NCBI GenBank assembly: GCA_019155205.2
Contig: JAHNZQ020003147.1
Span: forward strand, 1,044,682-1,108,681
DNA length: 64,000 bases
Source of the DNA: Gracilaria vermiculophylla
Lineage: Eukaryota > Rhodophyta > Florideophyceae > Gracilariales > Gracilariaceae
Direction: 5' to 3'
Each line of letters starts with the position of its first letter. The stretch's first letter is position 1. Under the pieces are notes generated by a model. The model saw only the letters and a program-made list of their open reading frames with translations, did no database searches and was not told where the DNA came from. Positions 2,625 through 58,909 of the stretch are shown one piece after another. The position numbers were made by a program, and so were the translations under genes.

Positions 2625-3667
2625 AAGCTCCGCGTGGCTCTTTACCATCGAGCCTCAACTCTGCGGAGGTCGCCTTTAGGAAACGGGGAGAGGCCGTCTG
2701 CTCCGTCGATGCAGAATCGGCGTGCCCCCCAATCCCCTTGGACCCATTCGACACCTTTGAGGATTCTGTTTGCACGCTCCGCCGTGGGAATTACAAGGTA
2801 TTCGCCTCTATAGGATGTTCCCCGCTCACCTCCACTACGGTGGGCGCTATCCTCGATACCGGAGCCGGCCCCAATCTGGTGATTGCCGACGTGCTCCAGC
2901 GGTTTGCTCTTGGCTCCTTGAGGACTGGCAAGCTCCCTACGGTGCGCGATGCGTCGCGTCGAGCCTTGAACATCCTCGGCACAATCCCCTTGTACCTCCG
3001 GTTGGGCTCCTTACATGTGAAAGTGTGGTTCCTCGTGGCGACCAATTTGGCCGCACAATGCATATTGGGCACTTTCTTTGTGGATCGGTATGTACGTCCA
3101 ATCTACCTACGCCTGCGGAAGGTGACGTTTCACGACGCCGCCCCTGTCGGTATCGTGTACGCATCTCCAAGACCGGACGCCAACGCGCATCACGTGGGTA
3201 ACCTTCCAAAGGAGACGCAGTCGAATAAGCTCCGAGTGGTGAAGAGCATCGAAATACCCGCGAGGAGTCAGGCCTAAGTCTGGGTGCAGACCTCTGCATA
3301 TGGCCTATCATTTCTAGAATGGATTCCACACCTGACGACGAAGCAGCACTCCATGATGGCGAGCGGTGTTATGGAGATAATACCGAACATTCCCTTCAGG
3401 GTCGTGGTCGCTAACCTCAAGGAGTCGCCGTTACTGCTCCAGAAAGGAATTGTCGTCGGACTGGCACTACCCTCCCCTGCAAAACTGACTCATCTTCCTC
3501 GTGCGGAAGATTTTGCGCACTGCGATACAATCGTCACCATGGAGGGTGAAGCGACTTCACCGGCTCCAGAGGAAGAGAATCCTGCACTGTGGCAGGAGAA
3601 GCTCCAAATTGGCGAGGATTTTGAAGGGTATTGCCATAGGATAGTGGAGATGCTATCCGTCTCTTAG
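2607..3667 (+). pseudogene. pol: Aspartic protease and linker region of pol, element A
   Basis: In the -1 frame after the heptamer, the reading frame runs openly into a retroviral-type aspartic protease. The active site is LDTGAGPNLV at about 2855-2884, and a hydrophobic stretch follows (VKVWFLVATNLAAQCILGTFF). A stop at 3275-3277 is followed in the same frame by a linker containing LTTKQHSMM and IPFRVVVANL, which is shared with elements B, E, G and H. The frame ends at 3665-3667 just before the RT part, which continues in another frame. Protease would cut Gag and Pol in the particle. The active-site triplet is intact in this copy. It is altered in H (HTRAG). Confidence 0.85.
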
Positions 3668-3672
3668 CACAT

Positions 3673-5110
3673 GTGGTCTGGTGGCCTGATCATGTCAGCC
3701 TGGCCAAGCACAAAATCCAACTCACACCGGATGCAAAACCGGTACATCAACTCCCGAGGACGACCGGACCCAATGCGCGCGATTTCGAAGGCGATGAGGT
3801 CCACTGGATGCTGAGGAAGGGGGTTATCGAGCCTTCCAATTTCGAATGGGCCTCTTCGGTGGTGTTTGTCAAGAAGAAAGATGGCTCCTTAAGGTTCTAT
3901 GTTGACTACACACGCCTCAACGAGGTGTCGGTACGCGATTCGTACCCGATACCCCTTATGGATGAATGTATCTACTCCTTAGGCGATGCGTCCGTTTTCT
4001 CCACGCTGGATGCCAACAGCAGCTACTGGCAGATCGAGATGGACGACTCCGATAAGGATAAGACAACGTTCAACTCGCACTGTGAGATCATCAGATTCCT
4101 AAGGATGCCATTTGGATTGAAGAATGCACCCGCTACGTTCCAACGAGCAGTGGACATAATCAATGCAAAGGTGAAGTATCAGTACGCCTTGGTGTATATC
4201 GATGACGTCATCATATACTCCCGCAGCGTGGAGGAGTACTTTTTCCATGTGAAGCACGTGATCCAACTCCTAAAGGATTCTGGACTCACCTTGAAGCTGG
4301 AGAAATGTTTCTTTTTCAAGTCGTCGGTGAACTACCTGGGGCATGTTGTGCTTCCAAGCCGCCTACAGGCTTCTTGGAGAGATCCGGACGCCATCAAGGA
4401 GGCTCACCCTCCCACGAACCAGACAGAGCTCCGCTCCTTCCTAGGATTTTGTAACGTCTTTCGGAGGTTTGTACCGAATTTTTCCCGTATAGCGGTGCCA
4501 TTGAATCGCCTCTTAAAGAAGGACAGGCCGACGCAATTGGGAATCTTTACCGGTGAAAATTTTGAAGCCTTTAACACCCTGAAGAGGAGACTAATAGAAC
4601 CACCGATCTTGGTACTCCCAAAGTGGCACGGCCGAACGGTGTTGGACGCTGACGCCTGTAAATACCAGGTCGGATGTGACCTCCTACAGGAAAAACCGCA
4701 AGGTGGACTTCAACCCATCGGATACTGGAGTCACAGCCTCAAACCTACTGAGCGGAACTACTCCACATCGGAGCGCGAATGTCTTGCCATCGTATGGACG
4801 GTTCTGCTCTTACGCCCGTACTTCGAAGGCACGCGTTTCACCCTGAGGACAGACCATGCACCACTGAAGTGGATACTGTCCTTGACGGATGCTTCCGGTC
4901 CCCTGGAAAGGTGAAGGTTACCCCTCCAGGAGTTTGAGTTTGACATCCTCCACCGTCCTGGCATAAAACACCAGGCAGCGGATGCGCTCTCGAGCATCTC
5001 CACCGAGGGCAAAGATAAAACACCTTTGGAGGACAACATCCCGTGTCTGGTCATCCAAGACGCCGACGGAAAAGAAAGATCCAATGGAGAATGTTTGGAA
5101 TGCTGTAAAT
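3673..5110 (+). pseudogene. pol: Reverse transcriptase and RNase H, element A
   Basis: The open stretch 3673-4914 holds a complete Ty3/gypsy reverse transcriptase and most of RNase H. RT landmarks are VVFVKKKDGSLRF, YPIPLMDECIYSLGDA, FSTLDANSSYWQIEMD, RMPFGLKNAPATFQRA and the catalytic LVYIDDVIIYSRS at about 4185-4223. RNase H starts with TVLDADACKYQVGC, then NYSTSERECLAIVW and LRTDHAPLKWILSL, so the metal-binding acids are present. A stop at 4912-4914 (GAAAGGTGA) cuts RNase H; in another copy the same spot reads on as ERWRL. The C-terminal part (EFDILHRPGIKHQAADALS) follows in the same register. This is the second-best RT in the window after element G. Confidence 0.93.
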
Positions 5111-6450
5111 CTGTAGGAAAGTCTAGTGGACTCCCTGAAGTGATGGCTCTTGTTGAGGAGGAGAAAGAAGTTCTCCCCATTACCGTAGTGTAGTTTCTGA
5201 AACAACGGAGTGCGTATGCGTACTGCAAGGAGTGTCTCGCCACTGTGGGGAGTTTGACATCTTCATTCGATGTTGTCGGAGGTGGCGTGCTCGTACGCCG
5301 CGCCTCTCTGGATGGAGCTCTTCAAAAGGTCGTCCCGACGAAGCTGCGGGTGAGATTGTTGTACATCTCGAACTATCCTCGCCCCGCCGGGCATCCCGGT
5401 GGATCCCGGATGTATTTTACCATGTGGAGGGAGTTCTAATGGCCAAAAATGGCTAATGACGCCTTCCAAACGGGGGCGGGTTGCTATTCTTGCGCCGCCA
5501 CCAGGGGGAATATACGGAAACACCGGACGCCGCTCACGCTGTTCCCACCTTCAGGACCATTGGAGCTTGTGGCCATGAACATCTTGGGTCCTCTCCCCAT
5601 GACGAAGCGAGGGCACCGATTTATCTTCGTGATCACGGATCGTTTCTCCAATATCACGCGTGCCATACCCCTAGGAGCATCCCTGCACCAGTGATTCTCG
5701 ACGCCTTTCTGGAGCATTGGGTTTACCCCTATGGGATACCGTTGTACCTTCTCACGGACCATGGCCCGCAGTTCGCAGCGAAGCTCTTCAGCGCCGTCTC
5801 TGGAATGCTGGGGATGAAACAGTTGTTTACAACTACGTATCACCCCCAGACCAACGAACAGTCAGAGAGGTTCAACAAGACCATCGCCTCGAGGCTGAAG
5901 CACTACGTCGCGGACCACCAAAAGGATTGGGACGAATATTTGGGTCCCCTCACGTATGCATACAACCTGCAGGTGTACCGCTCCACGGGTACCGCTACTT
6001 TCAATCTGGTGCTCTCGCCCATCCCATCAATTGCCGTCATTGCGGCACGCGCTACGGCATACCCCGCGGATGGGCCACAGGCGCCAACAGCGGCGCAAGC
6101 CAAACGCTCCATCCTAAGGCGGTATGAGAACGCACTCTCCCTCGCAAAGGAGAGGCTCAACGCCTCGCAGTGGAGATATAAGCAGGACTTCGACCAGAAC
6201 GTGATGGAAGGCCCTCACCTAAAGGAAGGCGACGAGGTTTTTCTCGACAAACCCGGGGAAACATTCGACGAACCGCCGAACGTCACGCGCAAGTTAGCGC
6301 CGACCACCTCAGGGCCCTACAAAGTCCTGGCCACCTATGGGGATACTGTCGCCATTGAGGTAAACGGGCTCCGAGACGTCGTCTCCCATGATAGGGTAAC
6401 GAAAATCCTAACGCCCGGCCTCTCAGGAATTCCCGTTACCCCACCTCAGG
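5110..6450 (+). pseudogene. pol: Integrase, element A
   Basis: The N-terminal zinc-binding part includes YPRPAGHPGG...FQTGAGCYSCAATRG around 5365-5510. The DDE core follows: LVAMNILGPLPMTKRG (the first Asp appears as Asn), LLTDHGPQFAAKLFS for the second Asp, and TNEQSERFNKT for the Glu, near 5850-5880. A stop and a one-base shift around 5690 split the core into two frames. The C-terminal part has LNASQWRYKQDFD, LKEGDEVFLDKP and RKLAPTTSGPYKV, the GPY/F-type module of chromoviruses. It would insert the cDNA. The Asp-to-Asn change and the frameshift make it inactive. Confidence 0.9.
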
Positions 6451-6539
6451 GACAACGCGCGGAAAATCCTCATCCGACCACTTCAGGCGCGACGACACCA
6501 CGGGATACTGGGAACCTCATCACCGCTCTCGGTGACCCA

Positions 6540-6761
6540 TCACCGGAGGCTGCCGATGGCATCCTGACCCCTGACGGTGACATCCTCTTCGCAGCGGACC
6601 ATATCTTCTCCCATCGACAAACCCCTGCGGTTATACTGTACCGCGTCCGCTGGCATGGGTACACCTCGAAGGACGACACGGAAGAACCTCCGTAACATAT
6701 CTCGAAGAACGTCCTTAGGCGATAACACGCCAATCTGGTGCGGAAAAGCCTCTCCACATGG
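6540..6761 (+). pseudogene. pol: Chromodomain at the Pol C-terminus, element A
   Basis: The segment reads DGDILFAADHIFSHRQ, ILYRVRWHGYTSKDDTEEPP, then a stop, and then HANLVRKSLST. The RVRWxGY...DDT.EP pattern is a chromodomain (type II-like at the end of integrase), which in chromoviruses binds modified histone tails and directs insertion. In G and H the protein stops where A has a tryptophan codon at 6759-6761, so the frame in A runs on to 6974 by stop loss. Confidence 0.82.
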
Positions 6762-7003
6762 GCGCTTCCGTTTAGAAAAGGGGGAGGGGGTCCCCAACCG
6801 GAGTTCTTTTTCGCCTCCGCAGTCTATCCCCTACCTGGAGTTATCTTTTTCGCCTCCAGGATGCCGTTGCTCGCTTTCCGCATGCTCCCACGGCGGCGCT
6901 TTGTGTCGTTGAGCACGCGGGCACGGCCTATTCATATTGGAATTACCGTTCATGGAGTTTCTGCTCTATCCTAAGGATTTTTTCTTTGCCCGGGCTCTAT
7001 CAC

Positions 7004-9077
7004 CTATAGGTCATCAAATTGCGTGGAGTGCTCTGCTTCGATGCGCGGTTTCGCTGTGAGGGCTTGGATATCGAAGAACTCCGACAGGGTTTTCTTAAGG
7101 ACCGCCATCGAGGCTCGGTCTGCCCGGGCCTTGTGGAGCTCTACGGCCCAGGCATGCGCCTCGCGCAGAGCCTCCACAGGAGAAGCCGGAGCAGGACGGC
7201 CTGTCATCGGGCCCGCCTGCACCAAATCCTGGAAGGCAGCCTCCAGTGCCCTATAGGAGACTACTCCCGACGGTGCACCCGATGCGGCCACTTCCGTTGA
7301 CGGCGAAACAACCGCCACGGAAGGAGCCGTTTACGGCGGACCAGCTGGGACAGGGGCTCCCCGACGGGATTCCACAGGCTCCGCAGTGGAGGTCGGCAAA
7401 GCCAAGGACGGAGTCGGTGACGCCGGAGGTGACGGCGGTGCGTGAACTGGAACGATTCGCAGGCGAGGCCGGGGAACAGGCGCAGGGACGCTCCGCCCTC
7501 GGAGTTGCACCACTGGAGCCAAAAGTACCGGGACGGGAGCAATCTCGTTCTCTTCCACAGCAGAAACGGCGGCTACCACTGCGGGAGAACTTGGCACTGC
7601 GGCGGGCCGCGGAGATATCACCTCAGGAGGTGCACTCATATCCTGGGACGGAGCCGGTAACCGATGGGACGTATCATACACCAGGCTTTCCATCAAGGGG
7701 TCGTACTCGGGTATTCTGAGCCGTGGCACCTGAGGAAACCGAGAAGGCGCCAGACGGGGAAAGGAAGGGTATGCTCGCCCGTCATCATCTCTATTCGGAC
7801 TCCTCACAATGGGGTGGAACTTGTCCTCGCCGTAGTCGTATCACTGGAAACCCGGCGTGTCATTTCACGCCACCTGGAGGTTGTAATCCAACATCATCTC
7901 CCCCTCGGACTCACTCCATGCGGTGCCCTTAACCAGGTTTTGGATGCCAGAGGAGCGCAACACCCGGATAATGAGCGCCCACAAGGGGAGCAAACGTCCG
8001 GCGGTCGGCTGATATGACGAGTCCCAGTAGAGGCGGCCGTCGCGGCATCGAGCATAAAAGGTTACTCCTTCGTCCTCTGCTTGGTGATACGCCATCAGGG
8101 TGCCGACCGCGAACTCCGTTGAGGCGACCAACATGACAAACCGCCCTAGGGAGTCATGCAGATCCAGGACCTCGGAGGTGTGATACGCGAAGGTCATGGG
8201 CATTGCCACGCAAAGGTGCAGAGATACCCAGTGGTCCCTCCAGGAGTCATTCACCTTGAGGTAGTACGTCTGACGCTGCCCGGAAGGCATTTCATGTAAT
8301 TACGAGTTATGCCAACCATAGAACTACCCGAAAGGGGTGCGTACTCGAGTCTCGTCCGCAAGGAGCGTCCCCCATCGATTCCGATTAAGCCAGTAGAGAC
8401 GATCGTATGGGGGATCGAAGGGCAACACCGCGAGGGCAGAGCGCCCGTCGGCAATGCTTCCGGGTCGCCCCGCTCTCTGGTGCACGCTCACCCTGTGGAG
8501 CAGTACCTTGAGTCGCGTCTGGATCTCGTGTTCCTCAGCGCACCTCAGATATGGACTGTCGCAGTGTCCCACCGTGGTTGGAGCGTTTTCATCGTGCACC
8601 GGAGTGTGGAGCCAGTGAGAGCGATAGGCACCCACCCGCTTCCGCTTCTTGTCGTTTTATCGCAACCTCCGGTACGGCGCGGAATCGCATCGCCTGACGG
8701 TATGGGCCGAAGTGGTGAATGTAATCCTCCACGTGGCACGGGAGGCTTACTCGCTTGTCGTGGAACGGAACGAAGACCTGCGTGGCGCTATGATCGAAAT
8801 ACTCTCCTGGACGGAACGGGGCACCGGTCGAGGTGTGGTAAACCTCAGGATTCGAAGAAGACGTAGGCGCCGGAGTCGGAGAAGACATATAGAAGGTGTA
8901 GGAAGCTGGATGGATGGCGACGGAACGCGTGGTAGCACCTGAAGAGAGAGATTTGACACCACCCGGGGAACGATCCGCGGTTATATGCGCCACAAAGGAA
9001 GGAGCCGCGTCAAGCCGCCATCGTGGAATTCGAGGAGAAGCCGGGCGACAGGAATCAGGCGAGGTATGAGGCACCAT
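7004..9077 (-). pseudogene. Antisense gene (aORF), element A: full-length form, unknown function
   Basis: An opposite-strand gene lies between the pol end and the 3' LTR. ATG is at 9077 and the TAG at 7004-7006, about 691 codons. One frameshift occurs near 8640, and in-frame stops at about 8324, 8303, 7865 and 7331 break it. The N-terminus is Ser/Pro-rich (PTPAPTSSSN). The central region contains HWLHTPVHDENAPTT, ALAVLPFDPPYDRLYW, MPSGQRQTYYLKVNDSW and FAYHTSEVLDLHDSLGRF. A Pro/Ala-rich linker with VEENEIAPVP follows, then a helical C-terminus (ALEAAFQDLVQA, PVEALREAHAWAVEL) ending in DDL. No signal peptide, membrane segment or known catalytic motif is evident. Homologues sit at the same place in B, C, G and H. 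I do not recognise the family. An antisense RNA from it would converge with pol, 242 bp stop to stop. Confidence 0.8.
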
Positions 9078-9593
9078 AACGAGGCGCGCATTTATATCCA
9101 GTGAAGGACGACGGGGACGCAGACGAGGGGATTATGAGACTTGCATCTTCAAGGAGAAGGGATGAACGGACGCGGTGATGTGGGTGTTTCCTGAAGGAGA
9201 ATCCTCGATGGAATCGGAACGGTAAGCGCCTCAAGGGAGTCAGTGTCTACTCTGGGCTGACCAACGCTCTGGCCGCGGAGTTTGCGCGACTACACCGCGG
9301 ACGACGAACTTGAATGCATGGGAGCTCACGCCGCCAACTGGAGCGGTTTCACAGAAAGGATACGCCGATAAGGAGGAGATGCAGCCCAGTCAAGGAGGAG
9401 CGAGGCCCGCAAACACCACAGGGGATGAAACTCAAGCTCGCGGCAATGCGCCGCGCAGGAATATGAAGAAATGGAGGAACGCGCGAAGGAGAGCATGTGT
9501 CAATCGCAAGAAGCTGCGCTTGCAGCAACACCCATAGGAGCCACCTCGCGGATCAAGGAATCGGAAGATGCACCTCGAAGACGTGGTCCAATT
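9078..9593. other. aORF leader and 3' untranslated part of element A
   Basis: This stretch lies between the aORF start and the polypurine tract. It aligns with the corresponding stretches of G (49241-49750), B (10796-11340) and I (48703-48862). I see no conserved reading frame. It probably carries the start region of the antisense transcript. Confidence 0.5.
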
Positions 9594-9607
9594 TAGGAAA
9601 AAGGGTA
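9594..9607 (+). promoter_or_regulatory. Polypurine tract, element A
   Basis: TAGGAAAAAGGGTA directly precedes the 3' LTR start. Related purine runs precede the LTR in B (10783-10795), I (48703-48715) and G (49226-49240), each read on the minus strand. It would prime plus-strand DNA synthesis. Confidence 0.75.
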
Positions 9608-10162
9608 TGTAGTACAGTGGCTTCTAAGGGAAAAAACGGTGGTGTGGCCTTATGGCATAATATTCCTAAGGAGGGCTCGTATTTTACTAGCTGGGCCACG
9701 TGGTGCATAATCCTGCCCGCGTGCGCTACTGTATCCTTGAGGAACAGTAGAGTTATTATTTATTTTAGTTCATTTATGCAGGTAATTACTACAGTAGTGA
9801 GACCTGCCGAGGCGGGCTCCCGCCTAGATCCTTAATCTGCCGGTTGAGCTCCACCTCTGGGGAGGTAAAGACAAGCATCCTTGAGTCTTCATCTACTTTT
9901 TCGCTTGGAGACTCTCGTCGATCAACTCAGGTCTCTAAGCCGCCAATCCCCAGGTCTCATCATAGCAGCGCCTGTAAAAGCATGGTCCGCCCAGTGAACC
10001 TCCCCCTTCGCTTGGTGTTTGCGGATCCCCTTTAAGAATTCCACCGGCTCGCGACAGCGGATACCAGTGACCAACTTTAGGAACACGCACCTTTAGAGTC
10101 AACAAAAACTTCTAACGGACGTTGTGCTTTACTACCCCAAGAGGAGAGCTGACAGTATCTCA
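9608..10162 (+). repeat. Element A 3' LTR (555 bp)
   Basis: The LTR begins TGTAGTACAGTGG and ends TATCTCA. It matches the start-of-window LTR and the A-family LTRs at 10233, 39107, 46335, 48149, 48863 and 56941. It contains a CACGTG palindrome (9697-9702), a stem GCAGGT...ACCTGC (9778-9807) with an inner ACTACAGTAGT, and a T-rich downstream part. Confidence 0.92.
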
Positions 10163-11340: not shown

Positions 11341-11786
11341 ACGGTTCTCATTTCTTGAGTGTCTCTTATTCATCAAATGCCACGGCTGCGTGTCCCTGAT
11401 TATGACCCGATGGTGGGATGCCTGGCGATCCATACACGACATCCGTGACCGGCTCCGTTCCAGGACGTGGCTGCGCTCTTCGAGGTGGTGCAATTGTCAC
11501 TTTGTGCGAACGCCCGGGCGGGTCGTCCTCTGTGACTCTTGATACCTCCTTTCAGGAGTTCTTGCACGCGTGTCTGGTGACGGGTCGCTCTGTGCCTGCC
11601 TCTCCTGTAAAGACCCTGTGCGAGGCTCTTAACGGGGTTCTTGGACTGCACAGGGCACGGACAGCGGACAGACCGAGCCTCGATGGCTGCCATCACGGAG
11701 AGCCTGAAGGAATTCATTGAGAGCCAAGTTCTCACAGCAAGTGCTCGCCTGGATGCGGAGTATGAAATGCAGTTGAGTGACCTGTA
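11341..11786 (+). pseudogene. Antisense gene (aORF), element B: central region deleted
   Basis: The start codon position matches A and G but reads ACG here. After about 30 bp the sequence jumps to the linker region (MPRLRVPDYDPMV), so about 400 codons of the central region are missing. The C-terminus is well kept: FQEFLHACLVTGRS, ASPVKTLCEAL, and the final LSDL followed by TAG at 11784-11786. The breakpoint differs from that in G, so the two deletions are independent. The aORF stop is 275 bp from the pol stop (12062-12064), facing it. Confidence 0.68.
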
Positions 11787-12061
11787 GGCGTGAGGAGATA
11801 CTCCGGCTGTGGTCGCTGGTCTACGGTAGCGTCGGAGTAAAATATCCTTGAATTGGAGCAGAACCTCCCTGGACGGTAATTGTAATACGAATGGGGCGTG
11901 CCCGAACTCCTAATGGCACAAAGTGCCGACGCGGAAGCGTCCGACAAACGAGAAACGGCGGCTTAGGGGCCAAAATGAGAACTCCTGGTGAGAAAGAGAT
12001 AGCGGAAAACGAAAAACAACTTCGGTGTGGGGCCCCTTTCCCCTTTCCTAAACGGAAGCGC

Positions 12062-26560: not shown

Positions 26561-27538
26561 ATGGGCTGCGCGTCCTGGAAAAGTCTTTTCCAAATCACGT
26601 ATCCCTTACTTCAACAATTGTCGCAAGGACTATGGGCCATCATAGAGGCAAGCGATTCAAAGTTTCGTAAAGCTCTGCCAGGAGAGATCAAAGTAGCAGC
26701 TTATCTGCTGTGCGCTGGCGGAGTTACATGTGAGAAGGCTGCAACACACCTCAGAATAGGCGCGAGCACAGTATCTGCAAGCGTGAAGACAATGACGAAG
26801 GCTGTAACTCAAAAGTACAAAGACGCTGTGCGCTTCCTAACAGAAGAGCAAGAAGTTGCTCGTGCAATGAATGGATTTGAAATGCTGAACGGTGTACTCT
26901 ACTGCGTCAGCGTCACTGATGGAACTCGTATCAAATGGACATGCTGCCCTGAAGAACAATACTATGAATACCGATGCTACAAAGGGTATCCAAGTGTAGT
27001 ACTGTTAGCGGGGGTAACCGCCAATGGGAGGTTTATTTACGTCGATATTGGAAAGCCCTGGGTTCTTGGTGACTCTACAGTACTCGACCAATCTACATTA
27101 AAGAAGAATATTTATAATGGAACATGTATTGGGGACGACATACCAGACTTGGTTATCGCAACCATCGCTGTTCGTCCTTACGTAATTGGAGATGGCGCTT
27201 TCCAGCTCACCAAACATATGATGAAGAGCTGTACCGAACGTGAGAAAAACGCGAACCCGGTATTGCGGACGTGGGCTAAAGTGGCAAGAACGACGATGAA
27301 GCCAGTAAAATGCGCATTCAGAATGCTTAAACACCGCTTCTGTGTCCTGAAAGATGGAATTCGACTGCAACATGAGGACGACATCGTTATATTTATATTC
27401 GCATGCATGGTTCTACATAACTGGAGCATTGACAATGGCAACGACCGGGAGTTTTATTTAACACCTTACGAAGACGAAGATCAAGATCTTGTTGTCACTG
27501 CACAGACGACTGCAGGAAAGAGACAAAGGGATGCATGA
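26561..27538 (+). CDS. PIF/Harbinger transposase (DDE_Tnp_4 type), one catalytic acid changed
   Basis: An open frame of 325 codons from ATG 26561. The family cuts and pastes TIR elements with a DDE nuclease. Seen here: an N-terminal helical part, an HTH-like GGVTCEKAATHLRIGASTVS, first Asp in VSVTDGTRIKW, KGYPSVVLLAGV, DSTVLDQS, second Asp in VIGDGAFQLT, then PVKCAFRMLKHRF. Relatives have Glu in the VECAFG-type motif, and here it is Lys (codon AAA), with Gly to Arg two residues on. If that alignment is right the enzyme is catalytically dead although open. The frame is open about 18 codons further upstream; an earlier ATG at 26332 opens a short frame that could be a first exon. The stop is 5 bp from the stop of the convergent partner gene. 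Confidence 0.85.
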   Translation: MGCASWKSLFQITYPLLQQLSQGLWAIIEASDSKFRKALPGEIKVAAYLLCAGGVTCEKAATHLRIGASTVSASVKTMTKAVTQKYKDAVRFLTEEQEVARAMNGFEMLNGVLYCVSVTDGTRIKWTCCPEEQYYEYRCYKGYPSVVLLAGVTANGRFIYVDIGKPWVLGDSTVLDQSTLKKNIYNGTCIGDDIPDLVIATIAVRPYVIGDGAFQLTKHMMKSCTEREKNANPVLRTWAKVARTTMKPVKCAFRMLKHRFCVLKDGIRLQHEDDIVIFIFACMVLHNWSIDNGNDREFYLTPYEDEDQDLVVTAQTTAGKRQRDA

Positions 27539-27543
27539 TTAAA

Positions 27544-28125
27544 CTACATAACCACCAGCTGTAGTGCAGAGTAGCATGCATCAGAACATACCAAATAAAC
27601 GTTCCGAAATTGCCCTAGTCTTCTCGTGTTCTTCGGGTTTTTTTGAATCTCTGATATCAAAGTCTCAGTTGCCTGTTCTTTCGTTTTTATGAGTTCGGAC
27701 AGTAATGAATCTCGAGAGAGCTTCACGCGCTTACGAGTGCTCGATGCTGGTAATTCCGGGGCACTAGCACCATCATCCGATGAATATTGCGCTTGTGGAT
27801 CGTAGCGCGCCTTTCTATTCTCCATCTCGTGCATCTGGTCGAAACACTCCGGCGTATTGAAAAGACTTTCGTCATCACCATCCCTGCCAGACTGCATGAG
27901 TTTGGCCATGAATGCAGAGTATTCCTGCTTTATGCGAGTGAACTTTTTTTGCCAACCTCTAGCTGTTCTTTTGATGCCACGGCTGCTTTCAGCGAGCTTC
28001 ACGGCGTCGGTAAAGACATGCTTTAGGCTTTTCTTTTGTTGCTTTCCATCACCATAGCTAGCTTGCTTCATCATGGAAAACAAAAGATTAACTGTGTCAT
28101 TGTCATAGGTCGGTTTGATTAGCAC
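27544..28125 (-). CDS. Harbinger partner protein (Myb/SANT-like DNA-binding type)
   Basis: About 194 codons convergent with the transposase, the usual companion in Harbinger elements. It binds the element ends and helps bring the transposase into the nucleus. Visible: TYDNDTVNLLFSMMKQ, ARGWQKKFTRIKQEYSAF (helical, tryptophan-containing trihelix-like part), an acidic middle, a basic STRKRVKLSRD stretch and a C-terminal helix. No ATG opens the frame: the first codon given is GTG, and the frame stays open to about 28270 (Ser/Thr/Pro/Gln-rich), so the true start may be on an upstream exon or was lost. Confidence 0.72.
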   Translation of the reverse strand: MLIKPTYDNDTVNLLFSMMKQASYGDGKQQKKSLKHVFTDAVKLAESSRGIKRTARGWQKKFTRIKQEYSAFMAKLMQSGRDGDDESLFNTPECFDQMHEMENRKARYDPQAQYSSDDGASAPELPASSTRKRVKLSRDSLLSELIKTKEQATETLISEIQKNPKNTRRLGQFRNVYLVCSDACYSALQLVVM

Positions 28126-49750: not shown

Positions 49751-50615
49751 ATGGTGCTCTATACCTCGCCTTTCTCCGTCCGTTCGTCTTCTCCGCGCAT
49801 TCCATGATGACGTCTCGACGCGGCTCCTTCTCCGGTAGGGCCTATAACCATGAGCCGCTCCCCAAGTGGCGTCAGATCCCTCACCACAGGTGCTACAGCT
49901 CCGACTCCCCGACTATGAACCCTTGGTGGAGAGCCTGGCGACTCGCGCGCCCTGTCGGTTACCGGCTCCGTCCCAGGATATGGGTGCGCCCCCTGAGGTT
50001 ATGACGCCGCGCCCCGCCGCAATTCCGGGTGCTCCCGCAGTGGTAGCCGCCGTGTCTCCTATGAAGGAGAACGAGATTGCTTCCGTCCCCGTAACTTCGG
50101 CCGCGGAGGTGCAACCCCGACTGCGGCCCGTCCTTGCGCTTGTTCTTCAGCCTCGCCTGCGGAGCGCTCTAGTTTCCGCATTGGCGTCACCTTCGATGTC
50201 ACCGACTCCGTTCTTGGCTCTGCTGACCTCCACGGCGGAGTTAACGAAGTCCCGTCGGGATGCCGCTGTCCCAGCTGGTCCGCCATCCGCGTCTCTTTCC
50301 GTGGTGGTTGTTGCTTCGTCAACGGAGGTGGCCGCTTTGGGTGCACCATCGGGCGGGTTATTCTCTGGGTCTCTGGGGGCTGCCTTCCAGGATTTGGTGC
50401 AATTGTGCCTGGTGACGGGCTTTCCTGCTGCGGTTTCTCCTGTATAGGCTCTGCTCGAGGCACGTGCCTGGATCTCAGAACTCCACAAGGGCCGCGCGGA
50501 CCAAGCCTCGATGGCGGCCATCATCGAAAGCTTGTCGGAGTTCTTCGAGAGCCAAGCGCTTACGGCAAAAGCTCGCCTCGAAGCGAAGTATACGGCAGGA
50601 TTTGGTGACCTGTAG
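49751..50615 (+). pseudogene. Antisense gene (aORF), element G: central region deleted at CAGGTGC repeats
   Basis: ATG 49751 (MVLYTSPFSVRSSSPRIP) aligns with the A start. After two TGA codons the N-terminal part continues (RLDAAPSPVGPITM, SGVRSLTTGATAP). At CAGGTGCTAC (about 49883) it jumps to the linker PDYEPLVESL, skipping what in A is about 1.2 kb. From there the frame is open to a TAG near 50445 and, after it, to the shared end: SASLSVVVVASSTEV, LGAAFQDLVQLCLVTG, ISELHKGRADQASM, FGDL, TAG at 50613-50615. The jump joins CAG|GTGC on both sides, so it could be a repeat-mediated deletion or look like splicing. Stop-to-stop distance to pol is 269 bp. Confidence 0.75.
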
Positions 50616-56940: not shown

Positions 56941-57157
56941 AAGCCCGGAGCCCGCCTCGGCAGGTCCCACTACTGTAATAATTACCCGCACAGATTAACT
57001 AAAATAAATATAAATTCTGCCGTCCCTTAAAAGTACTGTAGCGCGCGCGGGCCAAGTTGTGCACCACGTGGATCTGTTAATAAAATACGAGCCGTCTTTA
57101 GAAATATCACGCCATAAAGCCACACCAGCATATTTCCTTAGGAGCCACCGTACTACA
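56941..57157 (-). repeat. Element H 3' LTR, partial (U3 side)
   Basis: About 217 bp from the TGTAGTA start (57157) to the region of the stem. It contains CACGTGG near 57065. It is cut at 56941 against gag of G. Confidence 0.83.
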
Positions 57158-58909
57158 ACAGGCAAGTCAGTCTCCCGTGACCCGTTGAAGACTGCATCTA
57201 CCATTTTGGACCGCACCTTCACGCGTTGAGGCTCCGCGCCGTATTGGAGATCGCGTGGAACGAAAATAAGCGAAACTGGATGGAAGACGGTTGCGCTCAC
57301 TGGCTCCAAACTCCTGGGCACGGTGAAAATGCTCCGATCATTAAAGAGCACTGCAACACTCTTTCCCTCAGGTGTAATGCAATGCGCGAGATTCAGACTG
57401 GACTCCAAGTACTCCTGCACCAAGAAACCTCACATTAGCGAGTGCGAAAGCCCAGAATCATTGCAGATGAACGCTTCGATCTTGCAGTGCTGCCCTTCGA
57501 TCCCCCTTACGGTCACCTCTATTGGCCCAATCGTAATCGATGACGGTCGCACCTTGCAAATGAGACTCGAGGGCGGAACGCCTTCGGATACTTCTACGGA
57601 TGGCACAACACGGAATTAAATGATATGCCTTCCGGGCAACGTCTGCAGTGCTACCTCAAGGTGAATGACTCCTTAAAGAACTGTTGGGTCTCCCCGCACC
57701 ACTGCGTGGCGACTCCCATCAGGTTCGCGTATCATACCTCAGAGATTCTAGATCCACACGACTCCTTAGAACGTTCCACCATGTTGATCGCCTCGACGGA
57801 GTTCGCAGTCGGCGCCCTTACGATTTATCTCCAGGCCATAAACGACGGCGTCACTTCCCATTCCAGGTGCGGCGGTGGTCGCCTCTACTGCGATTTTTCG
57901 TATCAGCCAACCGCCCGACGTTTGCTCACCTTGTCAGTGCCAAGTTTCGGGATTCTTTGCTCCCCATGAATTCAGATTCTTGTCAAGAGCACCGCGTGGA
58001 GCGAATTCGAGGCCAATGTGCTGTCCGATTACAACCTACAGCTGGCGTGGAACGATACGCCAGGGTTTCTCTAGTACGACTTTGGCGAAGATAAAATCCA
58101 TCTCATTGTGACGAGCTCTAATGGAGAAGATGACAGGCAAACCTGCCCTGATTTTCTCCACAATGCCACTTCTAGGGTCCCACAGGTGGCACGGGTCCGT
58201 GTCCGCAATTATGATATCATGGTGGAGAGTCCAAGATCCGCACATCTCTTCCGTTACCAGTTCCGTCGCAGGACGTGGCTCCGCCCCCTGAGGTCGTGAC
58301 GCAGCCTCCAACATCGATGCCAGATCCTTCCACAGTGGTGGCCGATGTGACTCCAATGGAAGAGGACGAGATTACTCCCGTCCCGGCTGCTTCGGCCCCA
58401 CTGGTGCGACCGCATCTGCAGAGCATCTCGGGTCCAGTTTGTCAGCCTTGCCTGAGAAGCCTACCCGTTCTTATGCCGCCGGCACCTCCGGATTCGACCG
58501 CTCTATCCTTGGCCCCGCCAATCTCTAAGGCAGTGCCTAGAGAATCCACTCGGGAGCCCACTGTCCCAGCCGGCCCGCCGTATGCAACTCCTGCTGTGGC
58601 GTTTTTTGACACGTGGACTGCGAGTGCCGCTTCTGGCGTACCGTCGGGCGGGTTATCCTCTGTGGCTCTTCAAACTGCCTTCCAGGAGTTGGTGCAGGCT
58701 TGTCTGTTAACGGAACGTACTGCTTCTACTTCTCTTGTACAGGGTCTGCACGAGACTCAAAACGAGATCCCAGAGCTTCACTAGGCCCAGGCGGACCCAG
58801 ATCCGATGGCTACCATCAAGGAGAGCATGGCAGATTTCCTTGACAGCCAATCACTAACAGCGAAGGCTCACCAGAAGCCGACTACGTGACACGGTTTAGT
58901 GACCTGTAG
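57158..58909 (+). pseudogene. Antisense gene (aORF), element H: N-terminus deleted, central region kept
   Basis: Homology starts at the codons for DKRVSLPCHVEDYIHHFG in A and goes to the shared end (TAG 58907-58909). The central region is mostly in one frame: HWLQTPGHGENAP, LAVLPFDPPYGHLYWPNRNR, GYFYGWHNTELNDMPSGQ, CYLKVNDSLKNCWVSPHHC, RFAYHTSEILDPHDSLER, then the linker DPSTVVADVTPMEEDEITPV and the C-terminal ALQTAFQELVQACLLTERT, ATIKESMADFLDSQSLTAKA. Stops near 57436, 57538, 57967 and 58072, and shifts near 58260 and 58780. At the codon near 58072 it has TAG where A has TGA; both are one step from Trp TGG. Stop-to-stop distance to pol is 265 bp. Confidence 0.78.

Follow-up and report, generated by a model that had tools for sequence, protein, structure and literature searches.

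Does the strand opposite to gag-pol in a red-algal retrotransposon encode a protein of its own? The question is raised by a 64,000-nucleotide stretch of Gracilaria vermiculophylla DNA, referred to here as the window, which carries four copies (A, B, G and H) of a Ty3/gypsy element. In copy A, a long antisense open reading frame (aORF) lies between pol and the 3′ long terminal repeat (LTR), where an initial annotation, made from the sequence alone, had proposed an opposite-strand gene of about 690 codons. The many genomic copies of this frame, the open frames among them and a codon test bear out that proposal; the gene itself is well supported as real and protein-coding. Our preferred reading, held with moderate confidence, is that it constitutes a genuine accessory gene of the element, the product of which is probably nuclear.

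The antisense gene and its genomic copies

On the minus strand of copy A, the aORF reads from an ATG at 9077 to an Asp-Leu-TAG end at 7004. A frameshift near 8650 splits it into a first piece of 144 codons free of stops and a second piece of 551 codons with five internal stops in addition to the terminal one, in keeping with the earlier description of this copy as legible from start to stop with a single frameshift and few stops. The position between pol and the 3′ LTR was found to be general, with the LTR side aligning in all 30 copies, the pol side in 26–28 of them depending on the bin, and Pfam pol domains upstream. The orientation opposite to gag-pol followed from stops and the codon test in six frames, the pol frame lying on the other strand. 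In copy A the pol frame ends at 6695, about 300 bases from the aORF, and the two do not overlap; whether a natural antisense RNA covers the pol 3′ end, as had been suggested, therefore hinges on where such an RNA would end.

The claim that all four copies keep the gene was confirmed only in part. The Asp-Leu-TAG end is shared by A, B, G and H, yet only fragments of the gene remain in B and G, and in H the first hundred codons are missing: using tblastn, residues 105–676 were recovered from H in two frames, residues ∼1–48 and 438–690 from G, and only residues 445–493 and 604–690 from B.

Searches were extended to 44.8 Mb of the genome (27 contigs). Light-harvesting genes are present in it (10 matches); three such loci were retrieved, and the two compared with the PDB both had chains of entries 7y5e and 9kc5 as their best matches, the former entry being from the red alga Porphyridium, in line with a red-algal host. 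With the aORF DNA as query, the best 40 of 558 candidates were scored and comprised copy A and 39 other places, each covering most of the gene at 83–88% identity, two of the 39 with an extra short piece of 79 or 90% identity. Protein searches with the two halves of the aORF, in which 150 of 568 and 150 of 549 candidates were scored so that the counts are lower bounds, gave at least 150 and at least 151 matches, respectively, and the presence of the gene in so many copies shows that it is not a one-off transduction. Copies with an intact frame were also found; the initial annotation would have taken a lack of them among intact young elements as evidence against the gene. The copy designated L035 has an intact aORF of 690 codons from ATG to TAG, a second one, L059, has the same length with no gap or stop, and L048 and L060 are devoid of stops across the portion present. 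Relative to L035, 37 copies from the set L009–L038, L043, L047, L048, L054, L055 and L058–L060 showed 20 gaps and 10,654 substitutions, which is poor in insertions and deletions for their divergence, the score-based choice of copies favouring gap-free ones.

All 30 of the 30 copies had a start codon, either at codon 1 or six codons ahead of it. In 25 of these 30 there was an in-frame ATG at the upstream position, so the gene may begin slightly before the ATG assigned earlier. A TATA-like string ahead of the L035 ATG had been considered as an antisense promoter and was dropped as not general, these 25 copies having the in-frame ATG there.

Purifying selection on the antisense frame

Codon tests were performed on 38 aligned copies. 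Changes present in at least four copies were taken as shared and those in one copy as singletons, and the ratio of replacement to silent changes among shared changes was expressed relative to that among singletons. Singletons were distributed evenly over the three codon positions (546/529/525), as expected for dead copies, and shared changes showed a clear third-position excess (93/73/229; P ∼1.7e-19). Over the whole gene the ratio in the aORF frame was 0.23 (0.18–0.30), that in the mirror frame, with which it has third positions in common, 0.32, and those in the other four frames 1.07–1.46. Stops per 1000 codons amounted to 6.5 in the aORF frame and 18–32 in the other five, the mirror frame reaching 31.8, and this difference from the mirror frame fixes the coding strand as minus. 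Together with the codon test, these counts show that the open frame is no product of chance.

It might be argued that coding lies in a plus-strand frame, of which the minus frame would be a shadow, as the mirror frame has a low ratio, L030 and L035 contain sense open reading frames (ORFs) of 289 and 349 codons, respectively, opposite the gene, and one sense frame, which extends from the end of pol across the final third of the gene, is stop-poor (7.2 per 1000 codons). However, the mirror frame was open in none of the 38 copies, and the aORF frame had both fewer stops and a lower ratio. The stop-poor sense frame showed flat shared changes (37/37/43) with a ratio of 0.73, not below that of the other frames there, and the protein relatives described below match the minus frame. 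Mirror-frame coding is thus refuted, and plus-strand coding altogether has a negligible probability.

The constraint was unevenly distributed along the gene. The ratio was 0.43 for codons 1–69, 0.09 (95% interval 0.06–0.13) for codons 70–414, 0.30 for codons 415–483, 0.65 for codons 484–628 and 0.54 for codons 629–690, the intervals of the last two extending above 1. Constraint is thus strongest in codons 70–414, lower in the N-terminal part and difficult to discern in the linker and tail.

A sample of 30 copies chosen by DNA only was concordant, with ratios of 0.36, 0.25 and 0.13 at sharing thresholds of 3, 4 and 6, respectively, and tree-based counts by codon position were 171/139/444 on internal and 1457/1317/1695 on terminal branches. 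The test proposed in the initial annotation, whether the minus frame is enriched in silent changes when many copies are compared, thus came out in favour of the gene in the 38 copies, in the 30 DNA-chosen copies and in the branch counts. As controls, the pol tail in its own frame gave a ratio of 0.30 (25 sequences), the LTR gave 0.71–1.04 (29 sequences) and the spacer 6710–7003 gave 0.75–1.26 (27 sequences). Weaker points were the spacer 9081–9604, with 0.47–0.49 in two frames, and a short pol stretch with few shared changes, in which the pol frame reached just 0.73. When the frameshifted copy A served as the reference, two partial signals of 0.35 and 0.47 were obtained, as expected of a frame split by a frameshift. 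Singletons lacked an excess of transitions (570:1030), which is read as repeated hits because pairwise differences comprised 6875 transitions and 3779 transversions. Altogether, the aORF product was under purifying selection during multiplication of the element.

The predicted protein and its relatives

The most constrained region, codons 70–414, is rich in aromatic residues and histidine (22 His, 12 Trp and 19 Tyr). A single, moderately hydrophobic stretch was detected at residues 313–331, with a hydropathy maximum of 1.92 at residue 313. Near the C-terminus, helices were predicted at residues 633–650 and 654–686, with a predicted local distance difference test score (pLDDT) of up to 88 for this block.

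As a single query, L035 retrieved no relative. A profile built from natural stop-free pieces, which was required, led in public assemblies to P0001, a protein of 674 amino acids (E 8.5e-64), and P0001 in turn retrieved P0003 (652 amino acids, 50% identical to P0001) along with two flawed records. L035 is 31% identical to P0001 over 607 positions and 30% identical to P0003, both aligning through most of the protein. Two public entries were set aside or read with caution: P0002, a predicted protein in which the N-terminus of a bacterial DnaA is fused to the C-terminal half of P0001, was excluded as a probable assembly chimera, and P0004, which appears to be partly frameshifted, served only as a row of an alignment. 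Judged from these alignments, the aORF product belongs to a family that has other full-length proteins elsewhere. No relative was found in the viral contigs, bacterial and archaeal genomes and phages of the collections searched. The initial annotation had not recognised the protein among known antisense products, and no known family fitted it in any of the libraries searched (Pfam, PDB, NCBIfam and PHROG). Specifically, PF04195 (TRP28) matched none of L035, P0001 and P0003, and its best genome-wide match (E 0.38) did not pass the cut-off; TRP28 membership was rejected at this profile level, at which remote kinship may be missed. A match of the N-terminal piece to E_Pc_C (E 0.055) was below the cut-off and was likewise dropped.

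These relatives also bear on the view that an antisense regulatory RNA is what is selected, the open frame being a by-product. For LTR elements, antisense transcripts that may have a regulatory role have been discussed (PMC7264820), but an RNA acting as such does not predict a third-position excess, a stop deficit confined to one frame or protein relatives with ∼30% identity. The codon test largely refutes an explanation by regulatory RNA only, which we regard as highly improbable.

Alternatively, a fairly recently captured host gene could have been carried along by a single burst of copies, in line with the lack of relatives in viral contigs and with the relatives found being without a known retroelement context. 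Against this stands the third-position excess on internal branches of the element tree. In addition, when P0001 was searched against the genome, 66 matches were obtained (66 of 531 candidates scored), of which 31 overlapped the 40 places of the DNA search and eight had no stop in the matched stretch; no closer host gene stood out among the 66, 35 of them being untraced. Host capture is accordingly considered improbable, less so than an origin of the signal in RNA alone.

A selected gene could, on the other hand, encode a product that acts outside the nucleus, such as a structural, capsid-associated or envelope-like particle protein. The aromatic-rich conserved region, the near-neutral charge and the hydrophobic stretch 313–331 would suit such a protein, but hydropathy exceeded 1.6 in just four windows, and a short basic motif, RKRPR, found near the C-terminus of both P0001 and P0003, suggests the nucleus. 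Retroviral env genes are in sense orientation, unlike the antisense aORF, which speaks against an envelope-like product in particular. An extranuclear product is unlikely in our estimate, although it is the strongest of the competing explanations.

Organization of the rest of the element

The features of copy A and of the other copies in the window are collected in Table 1.

Table 1. Coordinates of the aORF, its parts and neighbouring element features in the window.
Feature	Position	Strand	Basis and remarks
aORF of copy A, decayed	7004..9077	−	Frameshift near 8650, 5 internal stops; intact relatives have 690 codons
Most constrained part of the aORF (∼codons 70–414)	7835..8870	−	Ratio 0.09; conserved to P0001 and P0003 by alignment
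Fast-evolving linker rich in Pro/Ala/Val/Ser (∼codons 484–628) and predicted helical C-terminus (∼629–690), ending in Asp-Leu-TAG	7004..7628	−	Composition, ratios, predicted helices
aORF scraps of copy B, same end	11362..11787	+	tblastn; Asp-Leu-TAG at 11779
aORF of copy G without its middle (∼codons 49–437)	49751..50615	+	tblastn; Asp-Leu-TAG at 50607
aORF of copy H, ∼codon 105 to end, frameshifted, with stops	57151..58909	+	tblastn; Asp-Leu-TAG at 58901
pol: reverse transcriptase, RNase H, integrase, chromodomain-like tail	3673..6695	+	Pfam; several integrase/chromo matches of copy A below cut-off
Internal polypurine tract directly after pol	6774..6790	+	All purine in 18/27 covered copies, at most one pyrimidine in 26/27
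Candidate small arginine-rich ORF between aORF and 3′ LTR	∼9133–9469	+	One codon phase weakly constrained
3′ LTR, ends approximate, short purine run ahead	9606..10157	+	Self-comparison, sequence

The order reverse transcriptase–RNase H–integrase is present, as in Ty3/gypsy chromoviruses. Pfam matches for reverse transcriptase and RNase H were above the cut-off and that for the integrase core below it in copy A, and those for reverse transcriptase and integrase were above it in copy G. As to the chromodomain-like tail, the best PF00385 match (E 1.1e-4, 22.5 bits, in L030) remained below the curated cut-off of 25.1, and the tail ORF of L035 gave no PF00385 match. The stop-poor sense frame that runs on from the pol end corresponds to positions 2871–3920 (minus strand) of L035 and was observed in other copies as well. 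Lying well away from the 3′ LTR, the internal polypurine tract could act as an additional plus-strand primer or be left over from a time before the aORF segment was acquired.

In the interval separating the aORF from the 3′ LTR, at ∼9133–9469, a single codon phase appeared constrained, with P-values of 0.0017–0.0083 before any correction for the dozens of frames tested. In the sense frame, arginine-rich by eye, 24 of 30 copies have an ATG and 17 of 30 the stop, with inner stops at two places in 8 and 7 of the 30 copies, respectively. Stops are less frequent in the antisense frame that shares its third positions (6.3 per 1000 codons compared with 16.8 in the sense frame), but this frame has no common ATG before the aORF start. 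A second gene at this place is a lead only.

Elsewhere in the window, at 26561–28125, a PIF/Harbinger-like transposase (DDE_Tnp_4) was observed next to an ORF on the other strand that gave a weak Myb/SANT-like match.

Discussion

An antisense gene between pol and the 3′ LTR has precedents. According to PMC7264820, such genes, termed aORF-3R, occur in Grande (gene23), RIRE2, Retand and PvRetro13 of plants and in Boty (brtn) of fungi; nuclear localization and an own promoter have been reported for Grande gene23, and the function of the antisense ORFs of plant and fungal gypsy elements is described there as unknown. The gene studied here resembles this group in its place, its opposite orientation, its many copies, its unknown function and the lack of known relatives outside elements (PMC7264820). 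It differs from the plant and fungal aORF-3R in its red-algal host, in having no match to TRP28 and in the selection shown here by codon tests. Retand carries TRP28 (Transposase_28, PF04195) and is described as a non-chromovirus (PMC11963269), whereas the present element has a chromodomain-like pol tail. The proteins of Grande, RIRE2, PvRetro13 and Boty were likened to the aORF product by layout and description, not by sequence. HBZ of human T-cell leukaemia virus type 1 (HTLV-1), a gene of a retrovirus, is likewise an antisense gene near the 3′ LTR, a likeness by description alone. The layout as such was therefore already known, and the protein family and its occurrence in red algae were not met in the literature found; in the open-licence literature we recognised no report of red-algal gypsy elements with an antisense gene, which is a weak negative.

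A function of the product is inferred from the conservation of the gene. The aORF-3R layout, with the nuclear localization and own promoter of Grande gene23, together with the RKRPR motif of the relatives, leads us to favour a nuclear accessory protein. Such a protein would be translated from a separate antisense transcript starting inside the 3′ LTR or in the ∼530 bases that separate it from the gene. It could then act in the nucleus on the expression, the RNA or the preintegration complex of the element itself, as has been put forward for Grande GENE23 and as retroviral accessory proteins would suggest by analogy. The RKRPR of the relatives is a possible nuclear-import signal, and the predicted C-terminal helices might serve self-association on a flexible linker.

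Several observations weigh against the nuclear accessory protein or against parts of the case for it. RKRPR is absent in the family of the window, and L035 contained no plain basic cluster when scanned by script; the charge of the protein is near neutral. Searches of Pfam, PHROGs, NCBIfam and PDB sequences revealed no convincing known domain or family, weak matches all having E >0.1 apart from the DnaA part of P0002, and the full-length fold model was poor (mean pLDDT 41.4, predicted template modelling score 0.28). With regard to selection, terminal branches also displayed some third-position excess, well-supported tree nodes were few (10 of 35 at ≥0.9) and internal branches made up 0.19 of a tree length of 3.19. 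Within codons 484–690 the aORF frame had a ratio of 0.61 compared with 0.68–0.83 in the other frames, so that the stop deficit is its sole mark there, and in the 30 copies the shared changes of the linker were flat over codon positions (15/14/16).

A wider and distinctly speculative possibility, which we rate as unlikely, is that algal Ty3/gypsy elements have a layout like that of complex retroviruses, in which a conserved antisense gene of a new family, with nuclear-import motifs in some members, and possibly a second small arginine-rich ORF would jointly control element expression across hosts.

The many dead copies of the element provide an internal control, as singletons look neutral and shared changes are filtered, and in this way an antisense retrotransposon gene has been shown to be selected, with a defined core, in a red-algal host. 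With P0001 and P0003 as independent members for structural and cell work, the role of antisense retrotransposon genes becomes directly testable.
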